Source of the DNA: Prochlorococcus sp. AH-736-L23
GTDB taxonomy: Bacteria; Cyanobacteriota; Cyanobacteriia; PCC-6307; Cyanobiaceae
Direction of reading: 5' to 3'
Assembly: GCA_028141225.1 (NCBI GenBank)
Contig: JAOIPS010000001.1
Coordinates: 62,001 to 126,000 of the forward strand
DNA: 64,000 nucleotides
Shown here: positions 689 to 41,527 of the stretch, in pieces
How the letters are laid out: the number at the start of each line of letters is the position of its first letter
Position numbering within the stretch: the first letter of the stretch is position 1
Program-made: the position numbers and the translations under genes
Notes under the pieces: model-generated
What the model was told of the DNA's origin: nothing
Databases searched by the model: none
What the model saw: only the letters and a program-made list of their open reading frames with translations

Positions 689-1098
689 CAGTTTAAGAAA
701 TTAAGTTTCTTCCTTAAGTGCAAGATTAACAACCTTATTTTTATTTGCAATAGAGATAATTAACCAACTTAACTCAAATTAGTTATGCAATTTTCAGAAA
801 GCTATGAATTTAAGTATTAAAAAACTTTCTAAAATCAAGAAAAACTTTTGATTGAATTAGATGGATCTTCTATAGATACAAATGATTCTCCATAATGAGA
901 TTCGGCTGATCTTATTAGTAATATGTAAAAGAAATTTACTAAAGCTTTCTCCACGAGGATTTAGTAACTAATTTAAATAAACTCATTATTTTTGTAATAG
1001 CAATATACAAAATAAATTTATTAAGTAATCAAGATATTTATCTTATAAAGCATAGTTGCATATTTAAAAAAGAAAAATTTACACTCTCAGCTTTTAGG

Positions 1099-1149
1099 GA
1101 GCGGACTAAATCCTCGTGGAGTATTGGACTTTAGCCCGCTCTGTCTTTT
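1099..1149 (+). terminator. terminator-like hairpin / possible 3' end of an ncRNA
   Basis: Stem gagcgg-a-ctaaa (1099-1110) pairs with tttag-c-ccgctc (1130-1141), one A.C mismatch, followed by tgtcttttt. Confidence 0.5.
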
Positions 1150-1301
1150 TAGCAAAAGAAACATATCACTGCAATGTTACTAGATCACCAATTATTTGTT
1201 TGATTCTGAATTAGCCCTTATTGGTTAATTCATCAAGATTATCTGAGCACAGGTTTGTATTATTTATTGTATAAGTAGGCTACAAAACTTTTGTCATATC
1301 A

Positions 1302-1653: not shown

Positions 1654-1757
1654 TAGATTGTAGTGAATACTACAAAATCGTCCGATCTACCATCTGATAG
1701 ACCGCAGTACGACTCAAGCCATAGGACGGGGACTTGAGCAAGTTCAGGAGCTGCATC

Positions 1758-1859
1758 ATGGTAAACATGTATTTCAATGGAAAGTCATTCGTATATTGTA
1801 GAAAAAAAGAAGAAAAGATTATAAAGCTTACTTATAGAGGATCTATTTATTTGAAATAA
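1758..1859 (+). CDS. 33-aa conserved-type micropeptide (MVNMYFNGKSFVYCRKKEEKIIKLTYRGSIYLK), Yfr6-like
   Basis: ORF of exactly 33 codons with AGGAG Shine-Dalgarno at 1746-1750 and a structured leader (ctcaag 1713-1718 / cttgag 1733-1738). Confidence 0.55.
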   Translation: MVNMYFNGKSFVYCRKKEEKIIKLTYRGSIYLK

Positions 1860-7573: not shown

Positions 7574-7602
7574 GAGCTTGCAAGTATCCCACCGGCAAGC
7601 TC
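7574..7602. other. perfect 8-bp stem hairpin gagcttgc...gcaagctc in long intergenic region
   Basis: Direct reading; 13-nt loop. Confidence 0.45.
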
Positions 7603-7897
7603 ATGACGACCTAGTTAATTCAGTTTTTTTGATTTAACCAGCCAAGCACTTCCTAAATGCTAAACATATCTTACTAAGTAAAATTACTTACCGTGAGTAT
7701 AAATGCTCATTTTAAGTGATTTATCTGCGAATTTGATAATTAAAGGTGATTTGATCAAAAATTATGAATTGTAAATTATTTTTTAAACAGAAATGTAACA
7801 TATTGATCCATAAATACTCAAGTTAGAATAATTGGAGGCTTTGGTTTACATAAGTTAATATTTGTGTTACTTTAATTAACAATTATTATTATCTTTA

Positions 7898-40533: not shown

Positions 40534-41274
40534 TTGCAAAACAATAATTTTATTTTAAAAGAGTTTTTAGACAATGCTTTTAATTTGAAATCACATTTAA
40601 TGGAATACTTATCTATTAAAGAATGTGATTTAGATGGATTCCTTGCAAATGCAAAGATGAATTTAGCAAATTCACATCCTGGAGATGCTTTGAATGATGT
40701 TTCAGATTTTTATACTGAAATAGTTGGAGATCGGCATGTAGCTGATTTAGCTGCTTGGCACATCACAAGCAAGGACTACATTGCTGATACTTTAAAACTT
40801 CAGCAGAGATTTTCTAGAGATTTGGTTTTAGATTTTGGAGGAGGTATTGGAACGCATGCTCTAGCTAACGCTATGTCTTCAAAAGTGGAGCATGTTTTTT
40901 TTGTAGATATTAATGAGACAAATAGAAACTTTGTTGAATACAGGGCTAAGAAATTAGGAGTCGAAAAAAAACTTACTTTTTGTAAGACAATTCATGATAC
41001 ACAAATATTGAAATTTGATACGATAATTTGTCTTGATGTATTGGAACATCTCGCAGATCCAGCTTCTCAAATTGACATTTTCAATGAGTTTATGGATCCT
41101 AATTCTATTGCCTTATTTAATTGGTATTTCTACAAAGGAGATAAGAATGAGTATCCCTTTCATATCGATGATATTCAAATTGTTGAAAAGTTTTTTGAGA
41201 CTCTCCAATCAAAATTTTTAGAAGTATTTCATCCTATTCTTATAACTACGAGAGCTTATAAGAAAATTAGATAA
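40534..41274 (+). CDS. class I SAM-dependent methyltransferase
   Basis: '[46 protein letters not shown]...[14 protein letters not shown]'; TTG start. Confidence 0.85.
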
Positions 41275-41527
41275 CTATATTTACTCTTTTTCTATTTCTT
41301 AAATTTCTTTTAATGCTTTCGAAACTTACAGTGCCTTCTTTAAGTGCAAAAAGTGTATCATCTTTTCCTTTACCAACATTGCTTCCCGGCAAAAAAGATG
41401 TACCTCTTTGGCGAATTAAAATTGATCCTGCAGTTACCTTTTCTCCACCATAAGCTTTAACACCCAATCTTTTGGAATTTGAATCTCTACCGTTTCTAGT
41501 AGAACCTGTTCCTTTTTTATGTGCCAT
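41267..41527 (-). CDS. rpmA: 50S ribosomal protein L27
   Basis: '[62 protein letters not shown]'. Confidence 0.98.

Follow-up and report, generated by a model that had tools for sequence, protein, structure and literature searches.

What is the function of a perfect 17-bp inverted repeat in the genome of a marine cyanobacterium? The repeat consists of CTCCACGAGGATTTAGT at positions 949 to 965 and its exact reverse complement ACTAAATCCTCGTGGAG at 1105 to 1121, with 139 nucleotides (nt) between the arms. It lies near the beginning of the window (the whole stretch of DNA analyzed, 64 kb) from Prochlorococcus sp. AH-736-L23, a high-light draft genome that is 75% complete. An earlier note on this DNA had proposed a plus-strand riboregulator, in which the 17-bp duplex and a terminator hairpin are rival structures, or else a small RNA (sRNA) and its target. 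As judged by the comparison of about 100 copies from high-light Prochlorococcus, both conserved elements belong to the minus strand. The left arm contains the GTG start codon of a previously unannotated small-protein gene, called SP1 here, and the right arm is part of the hairpin of a candidate sRNA, called R. We consider it likely that R is a trans-acting antisense RNA that blocks SP1 translation, resembling the RNAs of type I toxin-antitoxin pairs.

The inverted repeat

The repeat described by the earlier note is real and exceeds chance. It is the only perfect 17-bp inverted repeat within 300 nt in the window, for which Markov simulation gave an expected number of 0.05. The arm holds 8 G+C, and none of 20 simulations yielded such a repeat with at least 7 G+C. 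In its own genome, the 17-mer is matched perfectly at these two sites only; the next-best match has 2 mismatches and is inside a longer reading frame. Of 200 congeners, about 100 gave a match to the surrounding 451-bp region at approximately 80 to 92%, with both elements retained in these related strains. An alignment of 30 loci delimited two conserved blocks, 850 to 1035 and about 1085 to 1165, with a variable spacer (1035 to 1085) between them.

The left block: a small-protein gene

The statement that no coding sequence explains the region is contradicted by a conserved small open reading frame (ORF) on the minus strand, SP1 (954 to 835). Homologues were found in 80 of 88 congeners, mostly near-complete (distant paralogues included). 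The pooled dN/dS is 0.18, indicating purifying selection, and the third codon position changes most (266, 177 and 593 substitutions at positions 1, 2 and 3). By this pattern of substitution, SP1 is a conserved protein-coding gene. Its product is 39 to 45 amino acids (aa) long, in the size range of type I toxins (below about 70 aa). Those toxins are usually hydrophobic with a membrane helix, but a clear membrane helix was not evident in SP1 by Kyte-Doolittle analysis, the hydrophobic stretch comprising only 11 residues (ALVNFFYILLI) and the best 19-residue mean being 0.85. SP1 had no match in Pfam, NCBIfam, PHROGs, PADLOC or the PDB.

The start codon of the SP1 subfamily is GTG, rarely ATG or TTG, within ACTAAATCCTC-GTGGAG, and this context is kept even with ATG. 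The start region sits in a weak ACUAAA...UUUAGU hairpin, the predicted site of pairing with R. The block at 1002 to 1032 is conserved in R-adjacent and R-distant loci alike, with no match to a consensus promoter; we predict that it is SP1's own promoter.

A paralogous subfamily, SPd, starts with ATG in a context unrelated to that of SP1 and served as an internal control for pairing with R. SPd (MEKSFLNFIYWILVKSAESYYGDS...PYTPYF) is present in most high-light genomes, for example outside the window at 41274-41378 (minus) of contig C1 of genome G000 and at 1342682 in a genome that we take to be MIT9301 (the names MIT9215 and MIT0604 below are likewise presumed). A third subfamily (MYKALINFFYWLLIKS...) was found at loci L139, L140 and L145. 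Sister genus g32 has 35-aa ORFs with WVLLQLAMSYYGDSLKEFQV (L192 to L194) that weakly resemble the SP family in its C-terminal half (E ~5e-4).

The right block: a candidate small RNA

The local hairpin reported earlier (1099-1110/1130-1141) and its T-run are present; folded as the plus strand, the hairpin has an energy of -19.5 kcal/mol and is followed by TGTCTTTTT. Folding was nevertheless stronger for the minus strand (z = -3.9, versus -1.9 for the plus strand), because mismatched pairs of the plus strand become G.U pairs on the minus strand. We aligned 105 copies of R, comprising 65 distinct hairpins. Hairpin cells are paired in 97.7% of cases, whereas slid controls reach 52% at most. On the minus strand, cells that are not Watson-Crick pairs hold G.U in 93 cases and A.C in 13, and the reverse is true of the plus strand; one copy (L148) has a full swap from C-G to U-A in the stem. 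Going by this asymmetry, the R hairpin is probably an RNA of the minus strand. Upstream of it, TTG and TA of a promoter-like block show little or no variation across 28 diverse copies at unrelated loci, while the flanks otherwise differ; some copies carry TATAAA or TATAAT as the -10 element.

These observations bear on the plus-strand attenuator or terminator of the earlier note. The window itself speaks for it, as the hairpin is followed by five T residues and the two pairings are mutually exclusive. However, the copies in MIT9301, MIT9215 and MIT0604 are A-rich (e.g., TTTAAAAAAATAGCAA) where a T-run would be expected, and the stem changes are A.C mismatches on the plus strand. What is retained is TTG, 17 nt and TA on the opposite strand. 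Conservation is on the promoter side and not upstream of a plus-strand transcript, and a consensus scan found no terminator. Moreover, the two arms are 1.4 to 5.4 kb apart in MED4 and others, and therefore a single riboregulator transcript cannot be the general mechanism. We regard this explanation as highly improbable and infer that the plus-strand "T-run" is the -10 element of R read on the opposite strand. The second proposal of the note, in which one site is antisense to the other, held in essence, although the strand is minus and not plus. A plus-strand mini-ORF from the GTG at 1116 was rejected, as its length is not conserved and it is truncated in core copies.

The right dyad could also be the operator of a repressor, functioning as DNA only; in MIT9301 and MED4, an RHH-like gene is nearby. 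It is an 11-bp dyad with dispersed copies, and in MIT9301 an RHH-like ORF lies 138 nt away, although its match to Pfam RHH_5 (E = 0.15) is below the cutoff. We find this scarcely credible, since the G.U versus A.C asymmetry points to single-stranded RNA from one strand and the CUCCACGA part of the R loop is as conserved as the arms and matches the SP1 start region.

A covariance model built on promoter and hairpin (R1) matched the window at 1174 to 1100 (minus) with 96 bits, which is by construction, the window copy being in the model. Positions 800 to 1350 gave no plausible Rfam match, even at E values up to 10. The MED4 sRNAs named in the main texts of PMC2518516 and PMC7368042 do not include R. 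The R/SP1 pair is thus new to Rfam, and SP1 is new to Pfam, NCBIfam, PHROGs and PADLOC.

Table 1. Positions in the window of R, SP1 and their predicted control elements
Feature	Positions	Strand	Sequence and remarks
R 5' hairpin, candidate small antisense RNA	1099..1141 (about 1141->1099)	minus	GAGCGGGCUAAAGUCC-AAUACUCCACGA-GGAUUUAGUCCGCUC
R antisense segment (loop and 3' arm)	1105..1121	minus	CUCCACGAGGAUUUAGU; exact complement of 949-965
R promoter-like block	1146..1174	minus	-35 TTGCAG (1174-1169), 17 nt, -10 TAAAAA (1151-1146); TTTGC before -10
SP1	835..954	minus	39 aa, GTG start (VEKALVNFFYILLIRSAESHYGESFVSIEDPSNSIKSFS); ORF, homologues and dN/dS
SP1 translation start region	949..965	minus	ACTAAATCCTC-GTG-GAG; near-invariant in SP1 subfamily, missing from SPd subfamily
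SP1 promoter-like block (predicted)	1002..1032	minus	TTGATT (1032-1027), 19 nt, TATATT (1007-1002)

Predicted pairing of R with the SP1 start region

Complementarity to the SP1 start region lies in the loop and 3' arm of R, and the 5' arm of R is complementary to the CUUUAG beyond. The complementarity extends over 17 to 20 nt, perfect or with G.U pairs, as in the antitoxins of type I systems. Predicted R-SP1 duplexes ranged from -36 to -44 kcal/mol (z = -5 to -11), with -38 kcal/mol and z = -9 for the pair in the window. SPd showed no excess of pairing (z = -2.0 to +1.5) and was rejected as a target. In MED4, R at 770253-770293 is complementary to SP1 at 775680-775796 with one G.U pair, by which pairing is retained despite a C-to-T difference in the SP1 start region. 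Complementarity is also kept in MIT9301, even though R is at 871 kb and SP1 at 1339 kb.

We propose that R and SP1 are tandem minus-strand genes and that the R promoter gives rise to a short RNA that opens with a strong hairpin. The GTG of SP1 would lie in a weak hairpin of the same make-up as that of R. First contact would occur between the R loop (CUCCACGAGGA) and the SP1 loop (UCCUCGUGGAG), and the duplex would then extend across 17 bp of the SP1 start region and, through the other arm, CUUUAG. With its start codon in a duplex, SP1 could not be initiated by ribosomes, and the paired mRNA would probably be lost.

R has the appearance of an SP1 start region that was duplicated in inverted orientation and acquired a promoter. 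It may be that the shared 17-mer is a mere relic of this duplication, without regulatory function, and R does resemble the SP1 start hairpin, its CUUUAG arm included. We think this very unlikely, as the R hairpin and promoter block are kept at unlinked loci throughout the genus while their flanks have diverged.

Distribution and co-occurrence of R and SP1

Searches with the covariance model confined R to high-light Prochlorococcus (genus g1). It was not found in 33 other genera of the family, where the sole match, at 21.8 bits, was at chance level. The named genomes with the R core sequence were Prochlorococcus or Synechococcaceae, mostly single cells. We scored the presence of SP1 (best E < 1e-8) and R (E < 1e-6) in 88 genomes: 67 had both, 13 had R alone, 8 had neither, and none had SP1 alone (Fisher P = 3e-6, relatedness ignored). 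SP1 was thus found without R in 0 of the 67 genomes that have it, the pattern of a toxin that never occurs without its antitoxin, with the same proviso on relatedness. Coding by SP1, the R hairpin and its strand, the complementarity and the co-distribution are established by the sequences compared.

The distance between R and SP1 is 5.4 kb in MED4 and ranges from 1.4 to 5.4 kb across MED4, G038 and others. In MIT9301, MIT9215 and MIT0604, a lone right-block (R) copy has a tRNA gene and an RHH-like ORF as neighbors. R would act in trans, given its distance of kilobases from SP1 in other strains and the presence of a second, solitary R elsewhere.

At loci of the window type, R might instead be the 5' leader of the SP1 mRNA (transcript 1141 through 835), with a leader hairpin that captures the start codon in cis as a translational switch. 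The two are on the same strand, separated by about 150 nt in which no terminator is evident, and the 17-bp duplex forms in the predicted fold of the joint RNA (-55.8 kcal/mol). We consider a leader unlikely, given the distances of 1.4 to 5.4 kb in MED4, G038 and others, the solitary R at a third locus, the promoter-like block that SP1 keeps for itself and the variability of the spacer.

Transcription, repression and toxicity are inferences from sequence, and several observations weigh against R as a trans-acting repressor of SP1. The R stem has its minus-strand G.U bias and one full swap, but the shuffle control for covariation was weak, as few pairs change (28 to 114 of 500). A plain consensus scan called no promoter and no terminator in this region, so that the R promoter is predicted from its conservation only, and no intrinsic terminator is evident downstream of R. 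R persists without SP1 in 13 of the 88 genomes, and SP1 is intact next to some linked R copies that have decayed (e.g., L099), although in such cases a core copy is usually still present. Finally, changes in the SP1 start region, which are few, showed no clear preference for those that preserve pairing.

In genome G107 (L159), a truncated SP1 adjoins a decayed R, and MIT9215 (L044), which is without SP1, has a solitary R with a mutated loop (CUCCGCGAGG); these cases hint that R decays once SP1 is lost. MED4 has a degenerate second R copy at 1350540-1350618 (minus; 47 bits), perhaps the remnant of a window-type locus. Carriage of SP1 or R by phages was rejected: phage records gave no SP1 match and no convincing DNA match, and IMG/VR gave none.

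Genomic neighborhood

A glutamine-II riboswitch is present at 1676-1738 (plus; 58 bits), followed by a 33-aa ORF at 1758-1859 (plus; MVNMYFNGKSFVYCRKKEEKIIKLTYRGSIYLK). This riboswitch is also found near the R/SP1 locus in MIT9301, in MIT0604 and at both loci of genome G182. The sRNA Yfr20 was located at 7575-7662 (minus; 81.8 bits), and in MED4 it was recovered at 1336435-1336523, exactly its published coordinates. MED4 Yfr20 lies in genomic island 5 (PMC2518516), and because Yfr20 is present, the window probably corresponds to that island. Elsewhere in MED4 (768000-778000), a DUF1651 gene and an hli cluster are found about 1 kb away from SP1 and SPd. The DUF1651 gene is probably PMM0819, which is reported to be raised on infection by P-SSP7 (PMC5490813).

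Significance and comparison with known systems

No photosynthetic cell in the sea is more common than Prochlorococcus, whose high-light members have very few protein regulators. None of the toxin-antitoxin families then known was found in high-light Prochlorococcus (PMC2518516). If our interpretation is correct, the genus gains a clear RNA-repressed small protein, controlled by a widespread sRNA with one outstanding target whose start codon it covers, and R/SP1 illustrates the origin of an antisense regulator from an inverted duplicate of its own target. A more far-reaching idea, possible but doubtful in our view, is that high-light Prochlorococcus has in R/SP1 a functional type I toxin-antitoxin family: an island-borne toxic or growth-arresting protein, an antisense RNA that originated as an inverted copy of the toxin start, and a solitary core R that serves as a chromosomal anti-addiction RNA, guarding cells upon gain or loss of the island module. 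The solitary copies make the anti-addiction idea testable, and in MED4, the neighbors of SP1 include the hli cluster and a DUF1651 gene of a type that phage infection induces.

Paired RNAs with a small ORF, Yfr8/Yfr9 and Yfr6/Yfr14, have been suggested as toxin-antitoxin candidates in MED4 (PMC2518516). Unlike R and SP1, these are cis-overlapping antisense pairs located elsewhere. Identity with Yfr8/Yfr9 was rejected, as nothing matched at 339887-340241 and the MED4 homologues are at 770253 and 775680, loci that are absent from the table of PMC2518516. In Microcystis, msoT1/msoA1 was reported in 2025 as the first cyanobacterial type I toxin-antitoxin system, in a paper that does not mention Prochlorococcus (PMC12390103). 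It resembles R/SP1 as a cyanobacterial small protein with an RNA repressor and differs in the two membrane helices predicted for MsoT1 (PMC12390103).

By the proposed mechanism, R/SP1 resembles the unconventional type I loci, for which pairing over 15 to 21 nt is enough (PMC3919570, PMC4147584), but membership in the type I class cannot be claimed. The unconventional type I sRNAs of Escherichia coli are encoded divergently and base-pair within a long 5' untranslated region, not over the start codon (PMC4147584), whereas R is in tandem on the same strand or unlinked, is predicted to cover the GTG and has an extra, solitary locus. SP1, whose toxicity is hypothetical, also differs from the E. coli toxins in its lack of a clear membrane helix, although cytosolic type I toxins without such a helix exist, such as SymE and RalR (PMC12390103). 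Complementarity is 21 nt for IstR-1 (PMC4147584) and 18 nt for OrzO, of which 15 contiguous nt suffice (PMC3919570). In zorO-orzO, tisB-istR-1 and shoB-ohsC, as in R/SP1, a small protein is accompanied by a separately promoted sRNA with limited complementarity of about 17 to 21 nt, and homologous copies occur in one genome.
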